From Bradyrhizobium barranii subsp. barranii (lineage in GTDB: Bacteria > Pseudomonadota > Alphaproteobacteria > Rhizobiales > Xanthobacteraceae), in contig NZ_CP086136.1 in NCBI RefSeq assembly GCF_017565645.3, forward strand, positions 3,021,501 through 3,085,500: a stretch of 64,000 nucleotides of DNA, read 5' to 3'. The notes beneath the pieces are model-generated. The model was given only the letters and a program-made list of their open reading frames with translations, was not told the DNA's origin and searched no databases. Each line of letters begins with the position of its first letter. Position 1 is the stretch's first letter. The position numbers were made by a program, and so were the translations under genes. This document shows positions 52,329-64,000 of this stretch, piece after piece.

Positions 52329-53118
52329 GGCATCGTCAACTTAATCGACCGCCGAGCCGAAGGAGGCGATTCTCAAAGGTTCGAGATTCGGCGATAGCGC
52401 TTGTCGTGGAGATGTCGCGCCAAGTCGCAAAGGCTCGCTCGCGCGAAGCACGACGGAAGTCGGCGGTGACAGCTCCGGGATAGGGGATGTGGAAAAGGTT
52501 CGCGACCTGATCGTGAACTGACAGAAACTGTTGAGCCTGACGGGACGATTTGAAACGCTTCATGATCCGCTCGCGTCGCCGCGTCGGCTGATGAGAGTTC
52601 TCGGCCCGATTGTTGAGAGCTTTGTGCTGGCGATGTTCGACGTGAAAGCCCATCTTCGCCCTCGCAGCGCCGTACGAACGGAGCTTGTCCGTGATTATCA
52701 CGCGCGGCGGCGTGCCGGCGGATTTCAAGAGCTTTTTCATGAGCCGCTGGGCAGCGCGCAAGTCTCTTCGGCGCTGGATCAAGACGTCGAGAACGAAGCC
52801 ATTCTGGTCGACAGCGCGCCAGAGCCAATGTTGTTCGCCCGCGATCGAGATAACGACTTCGTCCAGATGCCATTTGTCACCGCGAGCGGGTGCGCGCTGG
52901 CGGATCCGATCGGAGAACGGCTTGCCGAATTTCCGTCCCCACTGGCGCACGGTTTCATAGGTCACGCCAATGCCACGCGCCGCCAGCATTTCCTCGACCA
53001 TGCGCAAGCTTAAGGGAAACCGGAAATACAACCAAACGGCATAGCTGATCACTTCCGGTGGGAAGCGATGGCGGCGATAAAGAGGGTCCTTGGCAGTCCG
53101 CAGGCCGCTCGTCTACCC
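52329..53118 (-). mobile_element. IS6-family insertion sequence, copy C, one end missing
   Basis: Left end GGCATCGTCAACTTAATCG present at 52329. On the other side identity with copy A stops at about 53118 (GTCTACCCC), so the GGTACCGTCAAG inverted repeat is absent. It inserted between the MFS promoter and the amino-acid transporter cluster, and may mark the junction of two genomic segments. The following 219 bp (53119-53337) hold nothing recognisable. Confidence 0.85.
52336..53052 (-). CDS. IS6-family transposase (copy C), catalytic residues intact
   Basis: The 238-aa open frame keeps the DDE triad: [29 protein letters not shown] and [13 protein letters not shown]. As in copy A the ATG start of copy B is replaced by CTG, so translation initiation is unclear. 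With one terminal repeat missing the element probably cannot transpose itself but could act on others. Confidence 0.88.
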   Translation of the reverse strand: MISYAVWLYFRFPLSLRMVEEMLAARGIGVTYETVRQWGRKFGKPFSDRIRQRAPARGDKWHLDEVVISIAGEQHWLWRAVDQNGFVLDVLIQRRRDLRAAQRLMKKLLKSAGTPPRVIITDKLRSYGAARAKMGFHVEHRQHKALNNRAENSHQPTRRRERIMKRFKSSRQAQQFLSVHDQVANLFHIPYPGAVTADFRRASRERAFATWRDISTTSAIAESRTFENRLLRLGGRLS

Positions 53119-53337: not shown

Positions 53338-54144
53338 CTAGGTGTCTTGAACTTCGTTGACGGATCGATCCATTCCGAGAAACGACCGAAACCTCTCAGT
53401 TTGAGGATTGGCCATGATGTCGTGCGGCGCGCCGTGCTCCATGATCACGCCGCCGTCCATGAAAATAACGCGATCGGCAACCTCCCGGGCGAAGCCCATC
53501 TCATGCGTGACGACGATCATCGTCATGCCCTCGTTGGCCAGTTCCCGCATGACGCGGAGCACTTCGCCGACGAGCTCGGGGTCGAGGGCCGACGTCGCTT
53601 CGTCAAAGAGCATGACAGCGGGTCGCATCGCGAGCGCGCGGGCGATTGCCACGCGCTGCTGCTGGCCGCCGGAGAGGCGGGCGGGATATTGGTCGGCCTT
53701 GTCGGTCAAGCCGACCTTCTCTAGCAACTCCAGCGCGTGCTTCCTCGCCTCAGTCCTGTCTCGGTGCTGGACCGACACGGGCCCCATCATGACGTTCTGA
53801 AGGACGGTCCGATGCGGGAACAGATTGAAGCTTTGAAAGACCATTCCGACATGCTCACGGTTCTTCGCAACTACCTTCTCATCGAGCATGCGGCGACGGC
53901 CTGCGCTGTCGCTCTGATAGCCGACCGGTGCCCCATTGACCGTGATTGTGCCGTCCTCGAATGTCTCAAGGAAGTTGACGCAGCGCAGCATCGTGGACTT
54001 GCCTGATCCGCTCGGGCCCAGAACGACAACGACTTCACCACGCCGGACATCGAAAGAAACCCCGTTCAGGACACGATGCGCCCCGAAGGATTTCACGAGG
54101 CCATTCACTGATACGATAATGGGCGATCCGGCGGAGATGGTCAT
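53338..54144 (-). CDS. polar amino acid ABC transporter ATP-binding protein
   Basis: A 268-aa GlnQ/HisP-type ATPase: Walker [22 protein letters not shown]-loop [17 protein letters not shown], signature [17 protein letters not shown], Walker [17 protein letters not shown] and H-loop [16 protein letters not shown] at 54144 follows GAGGG. Last gene of the importer operon (binding protein, two permeases, ATPase). Confidence 0.95.
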
Positions 54145-54152
54145 GGGCACCC

Positions 54153-54803
54153 TCAGTGATCGAAGGAGAGTTTCCGCTCGCAATAGTTCGCGAGCAGCGA
54201 AATGGGGTAGCAGATCAAAAAGTAGATCAGCATGACACCCAGGAAGATTTGGAAAGCCGCGAGTGTTCTCTCCACGACCTCGCGAGCCGCAAAGGAGAGT
54301 TCCCAGGCTCCGACGACCGAGGCGTAAGAGGTCTGCTTGATCGCCATAAGCGAGATGTTGAGGATCGGCGCAATCGAGAGACGGGCTGCCTGAGGGAGGA
54401 CGACCTCACGGAGCATCGTCAGCGGCCGCATGCCAAGGCTCTTAGCTGCTGCGATCTGGCCGGTCGGCACGGCTGCGATGGCGCCGCGCACTGCCTCGGT
54501 GACGAAGGCGCCGACATAGAAGACCATCGATATCATGACTGCGGCGTAGGCGCTGAGACGGATTCCAAATGCCGGGAAAGTGTAGAAGCCGAGAAACATC
54601 ACGACCAATACCGGAATGCCCCGAAACACGAAGACGTAAGCCGTGACGAGGGACCGAAGGATCGGTCCACCTCCGCTCGAGATCGTTCCGACGACCGCGC
54701 CAAGAAGCGTGCCGGCTATGACGACGACGAAGGCGAGCCATAGTGTGACCAGCGCACCCTGCAACAGGTAGGGCAGGTTTGCGATAAGGACGGATATGCT
54801 CAT
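54153..54803 (-). CDS. polar amino acid ABC transporter permease
   Basis: A 216-aa His/Glu/Gln/Arg-family permease: the start is followed by [20 protein letters not shown] and the EAA loop reads [20 protein letters not shown]. Five membrane helices are expected. The start overlaps the stop of the second permease gene (ATGA). Confidence 0.93.
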
Positions 54804-55468
54804 CCGAGCCTCCGCGAGAAGCGCATCTCGCTGACTCGAAACCCGGCGCCGATGACGGAAGTCAGGATTAGATAGAGCGCCGCAACGAGGATGAAGACCT
54901 CAAAGGACGCTCCTGATCTTTCGATGATGACCTTGCCGGACAGTGTCAGGTCAAGCACACCGATCGCCGATACGAGAGACGTGTCCTTCACAAGGACGAT
55001 CAGTTGGTTCGAGACGGGTGCCATGACCTTGATAGCGGCCTGTGGAAGAACGATCTGGCGAAAAATCGCCCAGCGGCGCATGCCGATCGCCTGTCCCGCC
55101 TCCCACTGCTTGGCGCCCACGGCCGCGATGCCGCTGCGCAAGAGCTCAGACAAAAAGGCTGCGTGCTGAAGCGCGACGGCGAGGACACCGCAGGTGATCT
55201 CACCCCAGAAGATTCCCACGAGTGGCAGGCCGAAGAAGAGGAGGTACATCTGGACGAGGAGCGGTGTATTCCTCATCACCTCGACATAGGCTCGTACAAG
55301 AGCGCTGGATAGCCGCCAGCCGGCAACGCGCGGCACAGTGAGAAGCACGCCGATTGCGAGAGCCGTCGGCGCCGCGAGCGCCGCGACAGCGATGGTAACG
55401 AGCATCCCGTTCCAGAGTTGCGGAAGGTAGCGGACGGCGAAGTTGCCAAACTGTGACCAATCCATCAC
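54800..55468 (-). CDS. polar amino acid ABC transporter permease
   Basis: A 222-aa paralogue of the neighbouring permease with FAVRYLPQLWNGMLVTIAVA at the N-terminus and EAA loop AGQAIGMRRWAIFRQIVLPQ. The two permeases should form a heterodimeric channel in the inner membrane. A second ATG one codon in is equally possible. Confidence 0.93.
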   Translation of the reverse strand: MMDWSQFGNFAVRYLPQLWNGMLVTIAVAALAAPTALAIGVLLTVPRVAGWRLSSALVRAYVEVMRNTPLLVQMYLLFFGLPLVGIFWGEITCGVLAVALQHAAFLSELLRSGIAAVGAKQWEAGQAIGMRRWAIFRQIVLPQAAIKVMAPVSNQLIVLVKDTSLVSAIGVLDLTLSGKVIIERSGASFEVFILVAALYLILTSVIGAGFRVSEMRFSRRLG

Positions 55469-55489: not shown

Positions 55490-56338
55490 TCAGTTATTGT
55501 TGAGATACCACTTCGCATTCTTCGGCTTTTCGCCGAACCACTTCTCGTAGATCGCGCTGTACTCGGCGAAGAGATACCCGCCGGTCATCTCGGACACGAC
55601 GAGATCGAGGTATTGCCAGAGCCGGAAGTCGCCCGGCTTCATGAAGATACCCGTGTTGACGACATCCGTCAGGCGAGTTTCCATCACGCGCATGTCCGGG
55701 TTGGACTTGACATACCATGCGGCTACGGGAGCATCGAGCTGAGCGGCCTGGGCTCGGCCAAGCTTCACAGAGTTGAATTGCGAGGCGATGCCGTCAAAGG
55801 TCTGGAGCTTGGCCTGCGGGAAGAGGCGCTTGGCGCGCTCCTCCTGGGTCGGCGTGGTCAGATTGGCGATGGTGACGTTCGGCTTGTTCAAATCGTCGAG
55901 CGTCTTGAAGGGCGCATCTTTGCGGACGATGAGGACGATGCCGCCATCGATATAGTTGCGGGTGAACGCGACCCGCTGCGCGCGGTCGGCGTAGATGGTT
56001 GTCGTCTGCGCGCCAAAGTCGATCGTGCCGTTCTGGGCATTGGGCCAGCGCTGGGCTGCGCTCTGGCGAATGAACTCGACCTTGTTGGGATCACCGAAAG
56101 TCGCTTTGGCGATCAGCCGGGCAACATCGATGTCGAAGCCCACCAGCTCCCCCTTCTCGTCGACGAAGCCGAAAGGAGGTGACTCGCTCGACACGCCGAC
56201 GACCAGCTTGCCCCGCGCCAGGATTTCATCCAGCCTGGACTTCTCCTGAGCGTGGCTCGCCCCGGCCGCGAGCGCGAACCCGCAGAATGCCGCAACCAGA
56301 CCGGTGACGAACCGCAGTCCATAGCTTCGCATGTCCAT
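55490..56338 (-). CDS. polar amino acid ABC transporter substrate-binding protein
   Basis: A 282-aa periplasmic protein with signal peptide (LRFVTGLVAAFCGFALAAGA, SHAQ cleavage) and an SBP_bac_3 fold: LVVGVSSESPPFGFVDEKGE, FDIDVARLIAKATFGD, NGTIDFGAQTTTIYADRAQR. The family binds amino acids and opines. ATG at 56338 is preferred; the upstream 32 codons look non-coding. Ligand may be the amino acid metabolised by the divergent operon, but this is inference. Confidence 0.92.
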   Translation of the reverse strand: MDMRSYGLRFVTGLVAAFCGFALAAGASHAQEKSRLDEILARGKLVVGVSSESPPFGFVDEKGELVGFDIDVARLIAKATFGDPNKVEFIRQSAAQRWPNAQNGTIDFGAQTTTIYADRAQRVAFTRNYIDGGIVLIVRKDAPFKTLDDLNKPNVTIANLTTPTQEERAKRLFPQAKLQTFDGIASQFNSVKLGRAQAAQLDAPVAAWYVKSNPDMRVMETRLTDVVNTGIFMKPGDFRLWQYLDLVVSEMTGGYLFAEYSAIYEKWFGEKPKNAKWYLNNN

Positions 56339-56461
56339 GCTCCATTGGTTGTTGGAAAGATAGAAGTGTGGCCTTTGCTCAACGACTAGCGCTCGTCTTG
56401 CCGCGGCGAAAGAACACGTCTCCTGACGGAGCACGTTAGAAATAGTTACGCTGCCAACGTT

Positions 56462-57570: not shown

Positions 57571-58461
57571 ATGCCGACGATCGCCTTCTTGGGTGTTGGC
57601 CGCATGGGTTCACATATGGCGCGTCGGCTTGCCGAAGCCGGACATAAGGTGCGGGCCTTCGATCCCAACGCGCCGGCCGTCGCCAAGCTTGCCCCGGCTG
57701 GCGTGGAAGCTGCCGCAAGCCCCAAGGCCGCTGCCGCTGGAGCCGATTTTATTCTGGCGAGCCTCCCTTCTCCAGTGGCCCTGACGGCGGCCGTAACCGG
57801 TGAGGACGGGATCCTCGCCGCTGCGAAGAAGGGCGCGACTGTGGTCGATTTCAGTACGGTAGACCCCGAGACCACCAAGGCGGTCGCTGCAGTCTGCGAC
57901 AAAGCTGGGATCAACTATCTCGATGCGCCTGTCAGCGGCGGCGTCGCCGGCGCAGAAAATGGCAAGCTCCTGATCATGATCGGGGGCGACCAGACCGTGC
58001 TGGATGCGACGCGCCCTGTGCTTGAGACGCTGGCTGGCAAGATCATTCATTGCGGCCCGGTCGGTTCCGGACAACTTATGAAGTTGAGCCACAACCTGTT
58101 GACCGCGATCAACACGGTAGCACTCGGCGAGGTGCTGGCAGCTAGCGTGAAGTCCGGCGCGAAGCTCGACGTGTTGCTCGAGGTTCTCGGCGGAGGTCTC
58201 GCCGGCAGCAAGATGCTGGATTGGCTCGGCAAGACGCTCTTTACGCAGGAGCGGCCAGCCTTCTTCGCGCTCGACCTGATGCACAAGGACATCTCGCTCG
58301 CACTCGACGACTTCACGGCTTCACCGATGTATCTCGGGCAGCTCGTTCGCCAGATCTACAATACGGCCCGCGCGGATGGTCTGGGCGGAAAGGATTCCAC
58401 TAGCGTCTCGGAGGTCTACGAGCGACTGCTCAAGGTCAATCTCCGTCACCCCGCAGCATGA
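57571..58461 (+). CDS. 3-hydroxyisobutyrate dehydrogenase-family oxidoreductase
   Basis: A 296-aa beta-hydroxyacid dehydrogenase: NAD(P) motif IAFLGVGRMGSHMARRLAEA, substrate motif FLDAPVSGG-type YLDAPVSGGVAGAENGKL, and the catalytic-Lys region VGSGQLMKLSHNLLTAINTV. Such enzymes oxidise beta-hydroxyacids or tartronate semialdehyde relatives. ATG at 57571 follows GAGG. First gene of an operon with overlapping coding ends. Confidence 0.93.
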   Translation: MPTIAFLGVGRMGSHMARRLAEAGHKVRAFDPNAPAVAKLAPAGVEAAASPKAAAAGADFILASLPSPVALTAAVTGEDGILAAAKKGATVVDFSTVDPETTKAVAAVCDKAGINYLDAPVSGGVAGAENGKLLIMIGGDQTVLDATRPVLETLAGKIIHCGPVGSGQLMKLSHNLLTAINTVALGEVLAASVKSGAKLDVLLEVLGGGLAGSKMLDWLGKTLFTQERPAFFALDLMHKDISLALDDFTASPMYLGQLVRQIYNTARADGLGGKDSTSVSEVYERLLKVNLRHPAA

Positions 58462-59990
58462 TTTCGAAGAACAGGAACGAACAAATGAGAGCGCAACGCG
58501 CCACCACCAGCTACGATTCCGAACTGACGTTGCCGCGCTCCGGGCTGCTTGGCAACTTCATCGGAGGAAAGTGGATCAAGCCGGTCTCGGGCCGCACGAT
58601 GGCAGTCGAGAATCCCTGCCGACGCGACACCATCGCCATGGTCGGGGCTGCGGACAAGCAAGACGTCGATGCCGCAGTCGCGGCGGCCAAGGCGGCCTTT
58701 CCGAACTGGCGCCGCATGGCGGCACGAGCCCGCGGTGCGCTATTGACTGAACTCGGCAATCGTGTGTCGGCGCATGCCGAAGAGATCGCCAACATCCTCG
58801 CGGCCGAAACGGGTAACGCGCTGCGCACGCAAAGCCGACCTGAGGTCGCGAGCACTGCCGAGGTCCTGCGCTACTACGGCGGCGTGGTATCCGAGCAGAA
58901 GGGCGAGACGTTGCCGCTCGGCCCGGGGATATTCAGCTACACTACGCGAGAGCCGCTTGGTGTCGTCGGCGCGATCATCCCCTGGAATTCGCCCCTCGTA
59001 CTCGCAGCCGTGAAGATCGGCATGGCGCTCGGCACCGGTAACACGCTGGTTCTGAAGCCTGCCGAGGACGCGCCGCTAGCGGTCATCAAGGTCGCGGAAC
59101 TTGCAGCCGACATGTTCCCAGCCGGCGTCTTCAATGTCGTCACCGGAACGGGCATCGAGGCCGGTGCGCCGCTTTCGAACCATCCCGACGTGTCGAAGAT
59201 CTCGTTCACAGGCTCGGTCGAGGTGGGAAAGCTCGTGGCGCATGCCGCCGCCGACCGCATTGCGAAGGTCACCCTTGAGCTCGGCGGCAAGAGCCCCTGC
59301 GTCGTCTATCCAGATGCGGCGACGCCGGAGCAACTCGATACCTGCGCGACAAACGTCATCAATGCCATGCGCTTCGCGCGCCAAGGGCAGTCCTGCACGG
59401 CGGGCTCGCGGCTCTTCATCCACCGGGACGTGTTCGAGCCGGTGGTTGCAAAGGTTGTCGAGAAGCTGAAGGCCATGAAAGTCGGCGACGCGCTCGACGA
59501 GGCCTCCGACATCGGCGCGATCATCAACGCCGAGCGCTACGGAGAGGTTTGCGCTTTTATCCGCGAGGCCGTCGATCGTGGCGCGAAGGTGGAGATCGGC
59601 CAGGTCCCAGCTCCCGCTAACGACACCGACGGCTTCATGCCGGGCCCCGTCGTGCTGACGGGTGTCGACAATAGCTGGCGTGTTGTGCGCGAGGAGGTCT
59701 TCGGGCCTGTCCTGGTTGCGATCCCCTGGACGAACGAAGACGAGATGATCGGCTGGGCGAACGACACCCATTACGGTCTCGCTGCCTACATCTTCACGAA
59801 CGACATCACCACTGCCCTGCGCGCAGCGGAGCGAATCGATGCAGGCTGGCTCCAGATCAACCGTGCCGGCGGTCAGATCCCAGGCATGTCCTACGGCGGT
59901 GCCAAACAGAGCGGCATCGGCGCCGAATATTCTATCGAAGGGGCCCTCGAGAGCTACACCTATCGCAAGAGCGTGACCGTCACGGTGTGA
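58458..59990 (+). CDS. aldehyde dehydrogenase
   Basis: A 510-aa NAD(P)-dependent dehydrogenase: GVVGAIIPWNSPLVLAAVKI, cofactor loop FTGSVEVGKL, catalytic Glu in LELGGKSPCVV, catalytic Cys in RQGQSCTAGSRLF and EEVFGPVLVAI. Start overlaps the previous stop (ATGA); an internal ATG at 58485 has a better ribosome site (AGGA). It could oxidise the semialdehyde made by the preceding dehydrogenase. Confidence 0.93.
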   Translation: MISKNRNEQMRAQRATTSYDSELTLPRSGLLGNFIGGKWIKPVSGRTMAVENPCRRDTIAMVGAADKQDVDAAVAAAKAAFPNWRRMAARARGALLTELGNRVSAHAEEIANILAAETGNALRTQSRPEVASTAEVLRYYGGVVSEQKGETLPLGPGIFSYTTREPLGVVGAIIPWNSPLVLAAVKIGMALGTGNTLVLKPAEDAPLAVIKVAELAADMFPAGVFNVVTGTGIEAGAPLSNHPDVSKISFTGSVEVGKLVAHAAADRIAKVTLELGGKSPCVVYPDAATPEQLDTCATNVINAMRFARQGQSCTAGSRLFIHRDVFEPVVAKVVEKLKAMKVGDALDEASDIGAIINAERYGEVCAFIREAVDRGAKVEIGQVPAPANDTDGFMPGPVVLTGVDNSWRVVREEVFGPVLVAIPWTNEDEMIGWANDTHYGLAAYIFTNDITTALRAAERIDAGWLQINRAGGQIPGMSYGGAKQSGIGAEYSIEGALESYTYRKSVTVTV

Positions 59991-61063
59991 GCCGAGAGAC
60001 AGCCCAAGAGGTCTCCATCGTTATGCTCTTAACCGAAGACTCCACGGGTCCGGACCCTCTTCTGGCCACGGCGGGCGAGCGGTTCGATCGCCTGATGACG
60101 ATTGAATCCCGTCCTCTCGCGGGCGGGCTTCCACCGGGTCTCGTCGTTCCGATGTACGAGATCTGCCGTCGTCATCACGGCGAGCCGTTGTCTACGCTGG
60201 CAGCCAGAGCCCTGATGTCGCGCGTCGCCTACGGCGACCACGTCATCGTGGCGACGGGCGCCGGCGTTCCGCCTAAACTCCCGCAGGGCGAGACCGACGG
60301 ACCGCCAGGCGCCGCTGTCCTTGCACGGGCTATGGCCCTCGGTCTTGGCGCCCAGGTCACGATCGTCTCGGAAGAGGCTCATTCTAAGCCAGTGGAAGCT
60401 TGCGCCGCGCTCGTTGGATCCTTCACGGCAAGGCCGATCAAGGTGGAGACTATCCCGCCTCATTCCAAGTATGGGCCCAAGGCCGTCGAGGCGCTGCTGG
60501 CACGACACCAGCCATCGGCAATCGTCTTCGTCGAGCTCGATGGCCCCAACCCGGATGGTTTTTTCCACGGCGTCCGCGGCGACCGTCGCCCTGCCGGCAC
60601 GATGGCGCACCTCCATTTGCTCGCAGAGGCCGGACACGCGGCGAAGCGGTTGACGATAGGAATTGGCGACGGCGGTAACGAGGTCGGCTTCGGCGCGGTG
60701 CGGACGGCGCTTGCCGCTTTTCATCCAAATGGCTTCGTTGTCACGGCGGTCGAGACGGACGTGATCGTCAGCGCCGCAATATCGAACTGGGGCGCTTACG
60801 CCGTTTGCGCCGGACTTGCTGTCGGGCTCGGCAGTCCTGACCTGCTACACGACGAAACTCTCGAAGGGGAGCTGATCAGAGCCTGCGTTAAGGCCGGCGC
60901 TCGTGATGGCGCGACGGCAAGCACCGAACCCCTCGTTGATGGTGTCTCTGAGAGCGGTCATCGGGGTTTTGTCAGTCTGCTCCAAAGCATCGTTGCAAGT
61001 TCGTCAAGCGAGCTTGGTCCGGATTCGTCGTCGCGTCAGCGATCTCGCGAGGTGACCCAATGA
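59987..61063 (+). CDS. D-glutamate cyclase-like protein (DUF4392), paralogue A
   Basis: A 358-aa protein. Recognisable family signatures are VAYGDHVIVATGAGVPPKLP, ETDGPPGAAVLARAMALGLG, GIGDGGNEVGFGAVR and ISNWGAYAVCAGLAVGLG, as in the D-glutamate cyclase domain of mammalian DGLUCY. That enzyme turns D-glutamate into 5-oxo-D-proline. Starts at GTG overlapping the previous stop; ATG at 60023 with GAGG upstream is an alternative. A homologue, paralogue B, lies two genes downstream. Substrate may be another D-amino acid. Confidence 0.82.
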   Translation: MSRETAQEVSIVMLLTEDSTGPDPLLATAGERFDRLMTIESRPLAGGLPPGLVVPMYEICRRHHGEPLSTLAARALMSRVAYGDHVIVATGAGVPPKLPQGETDGPPGAAVLARAMALGLGAQVTIVSEEAHSKPVEACAALVGSFTARPIKVETIPPHSKYGPKAVEALLARHQPSAIVFVELDGPNPDGFFHGVRGDRRPAGTMAHLHLLAEAGHAAKRLTIGIGDGGNEVGFGAVRTALAAFHPNGFVVTAVETDVIVSAAISNWGAYAVCAGLAVGLGSPDLLHDETLEGELIRACVKAGARDGATASTEPLVDGVSESGHRGFVSLLQSIVASSSSELGPDSSSRQRSREVTQ

Positions 61064-61263
61064 CGCCGAGCTACGACCCCGCTGTTGGGCCCGACTTCGT
61101 CGGTCTTGTACCGGGCTTGAAGCATCGAGAATGCCTCGTCTGGCATATTCGCGCGGCAAGACGCTTTCGCCGAACGCTTCTGACAAGAACGCCCATTTCA
61201 TCGCGCGTCGCCGGTCACCTTGGCTCCCTGGTTGTCCGCATCGCCAAGTCACACTGGTTCTAG
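61060..61263 (+). CDS. possible 67-aa protein, unknown
   Basis: An ATG overlaps the stop of paralogue A (ATGA) and the TAG stop lies 6 bp before the next gene, exactly filling the gap in an otherwise overlapping operon. The product is Arg-rich with no recognised motif (ends SLVVRIAKSHWF). The spacing favours a real gene, but the composition and lack of homology to anything I know keep this uncertain; it may be a degenerated remnant. Confidence 0.35.
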   Translation: MTPSYDPAVGPDFVGLVPGLKHRECLVWHIRAARRFRRTLLTRTPISSRVAGHLGSLVVRIAKSHWF

Positions 61264-61269
61264 GAGAAG

Positions 61270-62583
61270 ATGATGACAGCCGTCGCCTCGGAGTCGAAAA
61301 CGCAATCCCCGAAGCCCACAGATCGCTTCGGTAATCCCATCGATCCCATTGTCGGCTTTGCGCGTGGTACCATCATCCGATCCAGTGTCGACGAAGCGCG
61401 TCGCCTTCGTCAGGGGCAGGTCGTAGCGGCCAATCGTGTCCGCAGGCTCGGCCCGCATTCCATCGGCGTGTTCACAGGAAATCAGCGAGACTTTCCGCTC
61501 AAGGCGGAAGATCTCGCGACACTTTGCGAGGAATGGGTTGGCCCGGGCCTCTTCGCCGAAGACCTCCGAGAAGTCGCGATCAATCACCTTGGTGGTGAGG
61601 ACGGGGATGGCGTCGCTGTATTCAAGCGCACCAGCGCGGGAATCATTGCTACCATCGTCGCTCATGCCGGCGGCAGCCCCGTGATTTCGATCGTCCCTCC
61701 GGGTGGGCGATCGCACGCTTCGGTGATCCGAGGCTGTTCCATCGCTCGGGTGGAACTCGTCGAAATCGGGGGCGATCGCGACTGGCAGGCAGCTCTGACC
61801 AAGGCGAAACCCAACCTCGTCGTCGTCACCACCGTAACGAGCGCCCTCGAGCTTCTGGACGACACCGTGACCTCGGCTGTCGTCAAAGCCACTCACGCGG
61901 TCGGCGCCATTGCGTTCGTGGACGACGCTTATGGCGCCCGTCTGCGTCCTGTGCTCCATGGCGGTAAGCCGGGCCTCGCCCTCGGCGCCGATCTCGCGAT
62001 TACCAATTGCGACAAGGCGGGTCTCGCCGGACCGCGCGCAGGCGTCCTTGCCGGCCGCCCCAATCTTGTCACGGCGGCGTCAGCGAAGGGCGCTGAATTT
62101 GGGATGGAGGCACGCGCACCGATCGCCGCTGGCGCCATGCGGTCTCTCCAGGCTTTTCGGCCTGACGACCTGCGGGAGGAAGCTCGCTCCGGACAGGCGC
62201 TCGCCGTCGCACTCGCCGAGAAGCTCGGTCGCGACCTCGTGGTTGTCAGCGATCTCGGACCAATGGTCGACGAGCAAGATGTGCTCGCCGTTGTCCTGCG
62301 GCGCGCCCGCCGTTCCGCCGAAGACCTCGGGCTCGTTCCGTGCGAGGTCTCCTCTGCGCTCGGCATGGTCCTCCTGCGCGACGATGGAATCCTCACGGTC
62401 AACACCCACGGACAGCCTGGGGCTCGTGTGTCGCTGCGCCTGAAGCCGACACTCGACGCGATCGGGCGAGTTGGCGGCCAGGATGCCGTCGTCGCCGCCG
62501 TCGATACTGCACTCGATCATCTCGCCTCGCGGATCGGCGATGTCTCCGCAATCTCACAGCTCGTTCTCGGAGAGCAGGCATGA
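61270..62583 (+). CDS. SelA-like PLP-dependent enzyme
   Basis: A 437-aa fold-type I PLP enzyme. AFVDDAYGARLRPVLHGGKP is the cofactor-Asp region and DLAITNCDKAGLAGPRAGVL holds the predicted Schiff-base Lys; both resemble the selenocysteine synthase/D-glucosaminate-6-phosphate ammonia-lyase group rather than aminotransferases. No selenocysteine machinery is nearby, so a lyase, racemase or ammonia-lyase acting on an amino acid is more likely. Two ATGs (61270, 61273) follow AGGAG. Stop overlaps the next start (ATGA). Confidence 0.8.
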   Translation: MMTAVASESKTQSPKPTDRFGNPIDPIVGFARGTIIRSSVDEARRLRQGQVVAANRVRRLGPHSIGVFTGNQRDFPLKAEDLATLCEEWVGPGLFAEDLREVAINHLGGEDGDGVAVFKRTSAGIIATIVAHAGGSPVISIVPPGGRSHASVIRGCSIARVELVEIGGDRDWQAALTKAKPNLVVVTTVTSALELLDDTVTSAVVKATHAVGAIAFVDDAYGARLRPVLHGGKPGLALGADLAITNCDKAGLAGPRAGVLAGRPNLVTAASAKGAEFGMEARAPIAAGAMRSLQAFRPDDLREEARSGQALAVALAEKLGRDLVVVSDLGPMVDEQDVLAVVLRRARRSAEDLGLVPCEVSSALGMVLLRDDGILTVNTHGQPGARVSLRLKPTLDAIGRVGGQDAVVAAVDTALDHLASRIGDVSAISQLVLGEQA

Positions 62584-63596
62584 GCAACGCCAACACTACC
62601 TTTGCGGGCATGGATGACCGGCTCGACCGACTGGTCAATCTCGATCTCGGGGGCCGAGGCGTCGAGCATCTTTACGAGGCGGCTCGCGCGCGGCAAGGCG
62701 GTGCCCTGTGCGGCGCGGCCGCCGAGGCGCTCGCCGCTATCCCGGTGGGGGCGACGGTCGTGGTGACGACGGGCTCCGTCTCGCGGGCCTGGATTTCGCC
62801 CACTATCGGCGAGAACGACGGGCCTGCCGGCGCCGCCGCGGTCGTGCGAGCGCTTGCCCTATCCAAGCGAGCGACCTGTGTCGTTGTCGCGGAGGAGACC
62901 CTGCTCGACGGCACCGCCAAGATCCTTACCAGCGCCGGCCTGTCGGTGCTCCCCTACGAGCAGGCGCGGATTGCGAGCGGCGACGGAAGCCTCGCGGTCG
63001 CCAGCACGCGCTCCTTTCCCGTGACGGACACCGAGGCGAAGGCCGCCTCCGCCGCCTTGCTCGATGAATTCAAGCCTGCCTTGGTCTTCTCAACGGAGCG
63101 GGTCGGCCGTAACGCCGACGGCATCTATTGCTCGATGCGCGGCATCGACTACGGCATGGGGCGGGCCCGGATTGACTACTTGTTCGACGAGGCGCTCGCC
63201 CGTGGGATTCCTAGCGTCTGCGTGGGCGACGGGGGCAATGAGATAGGCATGGGGGTCGTCGCCGACGCCGTGCGGCGCCATGTGAAGTTCGGCGACGCGC
63301 GGCCGGAAGGCGGTGCCGGCATCGGAGCGGTGACTGGCACCGATGTGCTAGTCACCGCAGCCTGCTCGAACTGGGGTTGCTACGCCATCCTGGGGGCGCT
63401 TGCGGCCCGTCTGAAGAGGCCCGACCTCCTCCATGCGCCAAAAATGGAAGAACACCTGCTGCGTCGCGGTGTCGACATCGGCTTGATCAACTCGGTCGGC
63501 AACGTCGTCGATGCTGACGTCGATGGGATTCCTCTCCAGACGCATGTCGCGATGACCGACTTGATCTCCGCGGTCGTTCGACCAGCGTTGCGCTGA
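62580..63596 (+). CDS. D-glutamate cyclase-like protein (DUF4392), paralogue B
   Basis: A 338-aa protein with the family motifs VGATVVVTTGSVSRAWISPT, NDGPAGAAAVVRALAL, STERVGRNADGIYCSMRGID, VCVGDGGNEIGMGVVAD and ACSNWGCYAILGALAARL. It is closer to the classical family (ERxGRNADG with MRG) than paralogue A, which has DGPNPDGFF at that place. The pair could form a heteromer or act on two steps or stereoisomers. Starts at ATG overlapping the SelA-like stop. Confidence 0.84.
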   Translation: MSNANTTFAGMDDRLDRLVNLDLGGRGVEHLYEAARARQGGALCGAAAEALAAIPVGATVVVTTGSVSRAWISPTIGENDGPAGAAAVVRALALSKRATCVVVAEETLLDGTAKILTSAGLSVLPYEQARIASGDGSLAVASTRSFPVTDTEAKAASAALLDEFKPALVFSTERVGRNADGIYCSMRGIDYGMGRARIDYLFDEALARGIPSVCVGDGGNEIGMGVVADAVRRHVKFGDARPEGGAGIGAVTGTDVLVTAACSNWGCYAILGALAARLKRPDLLHAPKMEEHLLRRGVDIGLINSVGNVVDADVDGIPLQTHVAMTDLISAVVRPALR

Positions 63597-63613
63597 AAAC
63601 AGAGAGGCGCCCA

Positions 63614-64000
63614 GTGTCAACCGAACCGATTGCACCCTTCCTCGATCTGCGTGGCATACGCGTTTCGTACGGATCAAACGAGGTTCTGAAGGGCGTCGAT
63701 CTCTCGGTTCGTCAAGGCGAGGTCGTCGTCATCATTGGCCCGAGCGGCAGCGGCAAGAGCTCGCTCCTGCGAACGGTTAACATGCTTCAGCCGGTCGTCG
63801 GCGGTGAGATCGTGCTGGAAGGCCAGGACTTGCTCTCCGGCAAGCAGGACGTGAATAAGGTCCGCCAGCGCGTGGGAATGGTGTTCCAGCACTACAACCT
63901 GTTTCCGCATCTCACCGTTTTGAAGAATCTCACCTTGGTTCCGCGTCGCGTTTTGAAGGAGCCGACTGCGGAATCGGAAGCTCGCGCCCGAGAGTTGCTC
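63614..64000 (+). CDS. amino acid ABC transporter ATP-binding protein, 3'-truncated by window edge
   Basis: From GTG at 63614 the frame reads through to the window end. It encodes GIRVSYGSNEVLKGVDLSVR, Walker [21 protein letters not shown] and Q-loop MVFQHYNLFPHLTVLKNLTL, typical of GlnQ-type ATPases. It starts 17 bp after paralogue B and is thus the next operon member, implying a second amino-acid importer beyond the window. Confidence 0.92.
   Translation, partial: MSTEPIAPFLDLRGIRVSYGSNEVLKGVDLSVRQGEVVVIIGPSGSGKSSLLRTVNMLQPVVGGEIVLEGQDLLSGKQDVNKVRQRVGMVFQHYNLFPHLTVLKNLTLVPRRVLKEPTAESEARARELL

Follow-up and report, generated by a model that had tools for sequence, protein, structure and literature searches.

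Organization of the operon

Here we describe an operon of Bradyrhizobium barranii subsp. barranii (assembly GCF_017565645.3) that brings together an aldehyde dehydrogenase (ALDH), a pyridoxal 5'-phosphate (PLP) enzyme of the MJ0158 type and putative metalloenzymes of the DUF4392 family, and that contains a core conserved in other bacteria. The operon lies in a stretch of 64,000 nt (NZ_CP086136.1, positions 3,021,501-3,085,500), referred to below as the window. Coordinates without a prefix are window positions, and those prefixed L005 belong to a locus extract around the window copy that reaches past the window edge.

A first-pass annotation had described seven or eight overlapping genes in one direction. 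Open reading frame (ORF) calls combined with Pfam and NCBIfam profiles verified seven genes of that list, on the same strand and in the stated order, but its short ORF is probably not a gene and two of the junctions do not overlap. On the forward strand, a beta-hydroxyacid dehydrogenase of the HIBADH/TSR type (bHAD; 57571-58461, ATG start; PF03446, 160.7 bits; PF14833, 90 bits) is followed by the ALDH (58458-59990; PF00171, 494.3 bits) and by a first DUF4392 gene (DUF4392-A, GLUCM-like_C; 59987-61063; PF14336, 186.5 bits, cut-off 27.9). The fold-type-I PLP enzyme, previously called SelA-like (61270-62583), and a second DUF4392 gene (DUF4392-B, 62580-63596; PF14336, 202.7 bits, cut-off 27.9) come next, and the window edge cuts the following GlnQ-type ATP-binding cassette (ABC) ATPase (63614-64000; PF00005), whose best NCBIfam match, PRK09493, is below cut-off for the cut piece. 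Successive genes overlap by 4 bases, except for a gap of 206 bases between DUF4392-A and the PLP gene and one of 17 bases between DUF4392-B and the GlnQ gene. The best solved relatives of bHAD are 2-hydroxymethylglutarate dehydrogenase (3cky) and TSR (1vpd), and the protein falls below all NCBIfam cut-offs listed (3-hydroxyisobutyrate dehydrogenase, 203.8 versus 291.6 bits; tartronate semialdehyde dehydrogenase, 228.4 versus 340.75 bits). The best NCBIfam match of the ALDH, betaine-aldehyde dehydrogenase, is likewise below cut-off.

A conserved core in two lineages

Neighbouring genes were scored by tblastn at 63 loci, which came from a single search of named genomes for the PLP enzyme, using query-derived patterns that favour close relatives. 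The ALDH gene lies upstream of the PLP gene at 62 of the 63 loci; the missed locus, L065, ends 293 bases before the match, and L027 and L045 contain the ALDH only in part. DUF4392-B directly follows the PLP gene at 61 loci; it is missing at L069, which is cut, and at L063, whose complete flank makes this a genuine absence. DUF4392-A directly precedes the PLP gene at 19 of the 63. The ALDH, the MJ0158-type PLP enzyme and DUF4392-B thus form a conserved, co-oriented core, and DUF4392-A and bHAD stand outside it. The suggestion that the two DUF4392 proteins form a heteromer is not supported as a rule, with DUF4392-A not directly upstream at 44 loci and DUF4392-B mostly without DUF4392-A beside it; two distinct DUF4392 steps are possible, both metal sites being kept.

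For the variable genes, the comparison covered the 50 loci with sufficiently long flanks (7 kb or more to the left and 1.5 kb or more to the right). At 16 of them DUF4392-A is directly upstream, and all 16 carry bHAD and none carries an MttB-type gene or a flavin adenine dinucleotide (FAD)/GcvT gene. Among the other 34 loci, FAD/GcvT genes were found at 32, MttB at 27, a class III aminotransferase (neighbour cluster c7) at 27, a class V enzyme (c5) at 26 and bHAD at 14. The two loci of this set without FAD/GcvT, L024 and L033, have a DUF4392-A copy elsewhere in the locus. Overall, the long-flank loci divide into 18 with DUF4392-A and 32 with the N-demethylation-type FAD/GcvT genes, with no locus carrying both and none lacking both. 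The 13 short-flank loci were set aside; three show DUF4392-A, four show FAD/GcvT and six show neither within the sequence covered (L027, L034, L037, L045, L065 and L068). The additions of the A-type lineage are DUF4392-A, bHAD and amino-acid ABC or major facilitator superfamily transporters, and those of the second, mostly marine lineage are MttB-type and FAD/GcvT enzymes, usually with the class III aminotransferase.

In a tree of the PLP enzyme (58 rows and 5 outgroup rows), the FAD type forms a single clade with support of 94/96, where all rows not of the A type were labelled FAD type, including L027, L034, L037 and L068, which have no visible module. The change between DUF4392-A and the FAD module is therefore, on this tree, one evolutionary switch rather than many. 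Going by the outgroup, rows of the A type fall outside the FAD clade, a weak indication that the A type is the older of the two.

The gene set had been put forward as an undescribed amino-acid operon. It is conserved across the 63 loci, and we found no published function for it and no paper on such an operon in the open-licence (PMC) literature. The same literature names DUF4392, and we found no mention in it of TIGR03576, MJ0158 or UPF0425. The families themselves are already known; their combination and its spread were not found described. MJ0158-type PLP proteins and DUF4392 proteins, both without a firm bacterial function, thereby gain a strong shared context, in which the ALDH offers a handle.

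Identity of the PLP enzyme

The PLP enzyme scores 193.5 bits against TIGR03576, the MJ0158 equivalog, which is below the cut-off of 304.45. At an E-value of 10, the only Pfam families listed for it are UPF0425_C (18.9 versus a cut-off of 27) and Aminotran_1_2. It matches an MJ0158-like fold, with the PLP-binding Asp and Lys. Across the phylum, 184 of 398 genomes have weak TIGR03576 matches, none of them above cut-off. MJ0158 itself (PDB 2aeu/2aev) is an archaeal protein with PLP whose structure was deposited as that of a hypothetical protein; the enzyme described here differs in sitting in an operon with an ALDH and DUF4392. To our knowledge, MJ0158-type proteins are known only as structures without a function.

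Among the families listed in the fold comparison, the threonine aldolases of T. maritima and mouse rank nearest after MJ0158 (the threonine aldolase structures being 1jg8, 2fm1 and 8pum), and other enzymes of this kind are level with unrelated PLP enzymes. This ranking points weakly to an aldolase-type PLP enzyme. The resemblance to L-threonine aldolases is one of fold and not of sequence family, since the Pfam search at an E-value of 10 gave no match to the threonine aldolase family.

Several plasmid records that carry this enzyme label it selenocysteine synthase, an identity that we consider almost certainly wrong. SelA (PF03841) has no match in the PLP protein at an E-value of 10 or anywhere in the genome, whereas the E. 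coli and M. jannaschii controls do match, and we rejected the identity on this ground; the neighbouring genes, which appear catabolic, also speak against it. The label on public records is thus unsupported for this enzyme.

The DUF4392 pair

A report on the DUF4392 protein TON_0340 (PMC5132392) names six acidic residues as metal ligands. All six are kept in each of the 23 DUF4392-A rows and 64 DUF4392-B rows aligned. DUF4392-B has an invariant TGSVSRAW segment in its 64 rows, a little ahead of the first two metal ligands, and a four-residue insertion within this segment is missing from the 23 DUF4392-A rows and from 10 other DUF4392 rows. In a tree of 59 rows with several long branches (23 of the 64 DUF4392-B rows, 22 DUF4392-A rows and 14 others), A and B form separate clades, each with support of 100/100. 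Four sequences (L126, L156, L167 and L172) were excluded from this tree on a failed motif pattern alone, of which L126 nonetheless keeps the ligands. A recent duplication of A into B was rejected on the strength of these clades. Each of the two has members in Actinomycetota as well as in Proteobacteria, so A and B parted early. Both proteins look catalytically competent from their conserved residues, and they likely act on different substrates or at different steps.

DUF4392 genes also occur in other settings, where they adjoin matches to DUF1445 (PF07286; a domain or neighbour in the mammalian D-glutamate cyclase), HyuA/HyuB or a threonine/serine dehydratase. Such clusters resemble the window operon in placing DUF4392 among genes of an amino-acid or lactam type; they differ in that HyuA, HyuB and DUF1445 were not recognised in the window operon, where a PLP enzyme and an ALDH are found instead. 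At four loci of one family, f40 (L122, L123, L127 and L128), gammaproteobacterial DUF4392 genes adjoin DUF1445 matches, and the neighbourhood, whose PxpABC-like and sugar-kinase-like genes were judged from sequence starts without profiles, is a possible D-glutamate salvage route. On an S. meliloti plasmid (L167:1-12406), annotation places hydantoinase A/B, an aminotransferase, KdgD, an ALDH, DUF4392, a Tct transporter and RidA together, perhaps forming a pathway for a lactam or amino-sugar acid. A 3573-codon proteobacterial frame (L117:4680-15401) contains two PF14336 stretches and DUF4781 and adjoins a DUF1445 gene, an unusual deployment of DUF4392.

Distribution, second copy and mobility

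Among the genomes sampled, PF14336 is present in 10 of 398 from the phylum and in 6 of 98 from the genus, three of which (G000, G407 and G414) have at least two matches. With profile A1 (E ≤ 1e-25), the PLP enzyme was found in 3 of 337 genomes of the class, in 5 of 120 in the family of a Saccharopolyspora carrier and in 4 of 149 in the family of a Roseovarius carrier; one match in each family is partial, and the class and family counts include the centre genomes. The PLP enzyme is thus a rare accessory trait in the sampled genomes. The core was found in named Alpha-, Beta- and Gammaproteobacteria and in Actinomycetota, a recurrence which indicates that the grouping of these genes is not due to chance.

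A profile search of the genome gave four PF14336 matches, forming two pairs. The second block (L006) lies 1.68 Mb from the window copy and is 97.0% identical to it over 13,536 bases. The window copy shares 98.2% identity over 14,678 bases with pUSDA76 of Bradyrhizobium elkanii, and copy 2 shares 90.5% over 14,830 bases with B. manausense, including a downstream gene of the glutamate dehydrogenase family. This gene (L006:13711-15138) directly follows copy 2 and was not seen after the window copy.

Comparison of the window copy with B. manausense gave ratios of nonsynonymous to synonymous substitution rates (dN/dS) of 0.05-0.13 for LysR, bHAD, ALDH, DUF4392-A, the PLP gene, DUF4392-B, GlnQ and the downstream binding protein. 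For the divergent binding protein the ratio is 0.07, the aligned B. manausense sequence having one gap and one stop codon. Between the two copies of the operon, DUF4392-A is 92.7% and the PLP gene 96.0% identical, while the neighbouring genes reach 97.8-99.7%, a mosaic divergence that looks as if recombination had taken place. The window DUF4392-A (L005:6988-8064, compared with L006 and L007) is nearer to that of B. manausense (96.0%) than to that of the second copy (92.7%), a sign of recombination.

Among 72,556 plasmid records, 18 carry the PLP enzyme (E ≤ 1e-30), including 8 from Bradyrhizobium and 6 from Sinorhizobium; 7 of the former and 5 of the latter name Glycine. Specificity for soybean was considered and set aside as confounded, because 29 of the 60 best RepC rows also name Glycine and 55 of these 60 rows are from Bradyrhizobium. 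In Sinorhizobium, the carriers belong to S. fredii or S. sojae or have no species name, against 254 records of this genus with RepC. No match was found in the phage records searched. Stretches beyond the operon are also common to pUSDA76, and the region around the window operon looks like integrated plasmid DNA. Near-identical copies of an IS6-type transposase (window 52336-53052) cluster across C1:3050571-3159596, with 31 matches in the genome including fragments. We do not claim a composite transposon, since the flanking pair of IS6-type copies is in inverted orientation, with many further copies nearby.

Possible pathway and alternatives

We consider it probable, short of strongly so, that the operon serves the catabolism of an alpha-amino acid through a PLP-dependent step and an aldehyde. 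The near-constant presence of the ALDH makes an aldehyde the probable centre of the pathway; the variable genes, bHAD and an omega-aminotransferase, both make aldehydes. These observations and the near-constant pairing of DUF4392-B with the PLP gene constrain the pathway. In the route that we favour, the importers would take up the compound, and a bimetal DUF4392 site would open or close the lactam of a glutamate-like amino acid. The PLP enzyme, acting in the fashion of a threonine aldolase, would split a beta-hydroxy-alpha-amino acid into glycine and an omega-oxo acid, and the ALDH would oxidise this semialdehyde. The same semialdehyde could be supplied by bHAD from a hydroxy acid or, as a second entry, by an aminotransferase from an omega-amino acid released by N-demethylation. 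Malonate or succinate semialdehyde would suit this chemistry, judging by the known substrates of these families. As a whole, the proposal that the operon is mobile and breaks down an unusual polar alpha-amino acid by such an aldolase route is tentative. We regard as doubtful the more specific claim that the MJ0158-type enzyme is a new amino-acid aldolase, working in tandem with a lactam-opening, metal-dependent DUF4392 protein and an ALDH in one core that serves two nutrient classes through a swapped entry module. If this were true, soil and legume bacteria would use the core for lactam or hydroxy amino acids, and marine bacteria for N-methylated amino compounds.

An ammonia-lyase scheme is nearly as good an account as the aldolase route and is possible to a similar degree. 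Here DUF4392 would first open a lactam, the PLP enzyme would form a 2-oxo acid from the (hydroxy)amino acid, deaminating it by beta-elimination, and an ALDH of the alpha-ketoglutarate-semialdehyde type would act later. RidA accompanies enamine-forming PLP lyases, and a RidA-family gene adjoins a distant PLP relative (L150) and belongs to the S. meliloti plasmid cluster described above (L167); in S. spinosa, a gene nearest to threo-3-hydroxyaspartate ammonia-lyase (303 bits, cut-off 452) adjoins DUF4392. Against this, the 45 listed neighbour gene clusters contain just one RidA-sized product (107 amino acids, in 2 loci), and by fold it is an aldolase that ranks next after MJ0158. Two points weigh on the aldolase and the ammonia-lyase routes alike: none of the profiles identifies a substrate, and the target of the demethylation-type module may be another part of the molecule or a different compound.

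Rather less likely is a pathway for D-amino acids, with import, racemisation or deamination by the PLP enzyme, and the DUF4392 proteins as true D-glutamate cyclases (D-Glu to 5-oxo-D-proline). The mouse DUF4392 protein and the DUF4392 neighbourhoods elsewhere provide the basis for such chemistry, including the four gammaproteobacterial genes beside DUF1445 matches, with a D-amino-acid-transaminase-like gene at L122 (258 bits, cut-off 320); the glutamate dehydrogenase family gene after copy 2 also speaks for it. However, the A and B groups of the window differ from the DUF1445-adjoining proteins in the segment before the first metal ligands, DUF1445 is matched in only 3 of the 63 loci, and the sole match found by profile search in this genome, at C1:3.478 Mb, is near neither operon copy; racemisation alone would also leave the constant ALDH unexplained. 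For the marine lineage, degradation of a quaternary amine by the core together with the MttB-type, FAD/GcvT and aminotransferase genes, for example of 3-hydroxy-trimethyllysine via trimethylaminobutyraldehyde and gamma-butyrobetaine, would assign a step to all the added genes. PMC8604678 describes an MttB relative that uses gamma-butyrobetaine, and PMC11016064 the cleavage of hydroxytrimethyllysine by the threonine aldolase Tha1; 4-aminobutyrate transaminases are among the relatives of c7, and the below-cut-off betaine-aldehyde dehydrogenase match of the ALDH suits this reading. We nevertheless think it improbable, because it gives DUF4392-B no role and neighbour cluster c6 scores 286 against a cut-off of 525 for the trimethylamine methyltransferase equivalog, no search having been made for a corrinoid protein. 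The module beside the marine core is similar to the MttB superfamily and FAD/GcvT dehydrogenases of methylated-amine catabolism, but it has no match at any of the 16 long-flank loci with DUF4392-A directly upstream. The window operon is of this A type, in which the module was not seen, and the ORFs read around it do not resemble either gene. The trait is accessory, present on plasmids of soybean rhizobia and also found in many marine Rhodobacterales, so that its substrate may serve as a genuine nutrient in both settings.

A distant relative of the PLP enzyme (L152:11874-15587) adjoins a sodium:solute symporter and an Oxidored_FMN/Pyr_redox enzyme, an architecture that we take to be that of some N-demethylases.

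Short ORF and flanking transport genes

The short ORF between DUF4392-A and the PLP gene (61060-61263, forward strand) has no Pfam match at an E-value of 10 and shows dN/dS of 0.29-0.89, on 7-13 changes. The 206-base space that contains it is confined to Bradyrhizobium copies, the other A-type loci compared having at most 60 bases. From these three observations the ORF is probably not a gene; its gap in the B. manausense alignment was not counted against it, since real genes there also show single gaps. A promoter and terminator scan gave a single weak promoter-like site and no terminator-like sites.

The block carries two importers, one divergent behind LysR and the other at the downstream end of the operon. 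Beyond the window, the GlnQ gene is followed by a binding protein and two permeases (L005:11409-13659; ORFs named from pUSDA76 orthologs). On the reverse strand, as the first-pass annotation had noted, a LysR regulator (57433-56462; PF03466, PF00126) and a polar amino acid importer (56434-53338) diverge from the operon. The importer comprises a family 3 solute-binding protein (55490-56434; PF00497, 94.4 bits), two permeases (54800-55468 and 54153-54803) and an ATPase (53338-54183), the last three being ORFs with annotated counterparts on pUSDA76, that of the first permease reading 'amino acid ABC transporter permease'. In alignments of the divergent binding protein, an Arg and an Asp match those of solved amino-acid binders, residues that we take to bind the amino acid in family 3 proteins.

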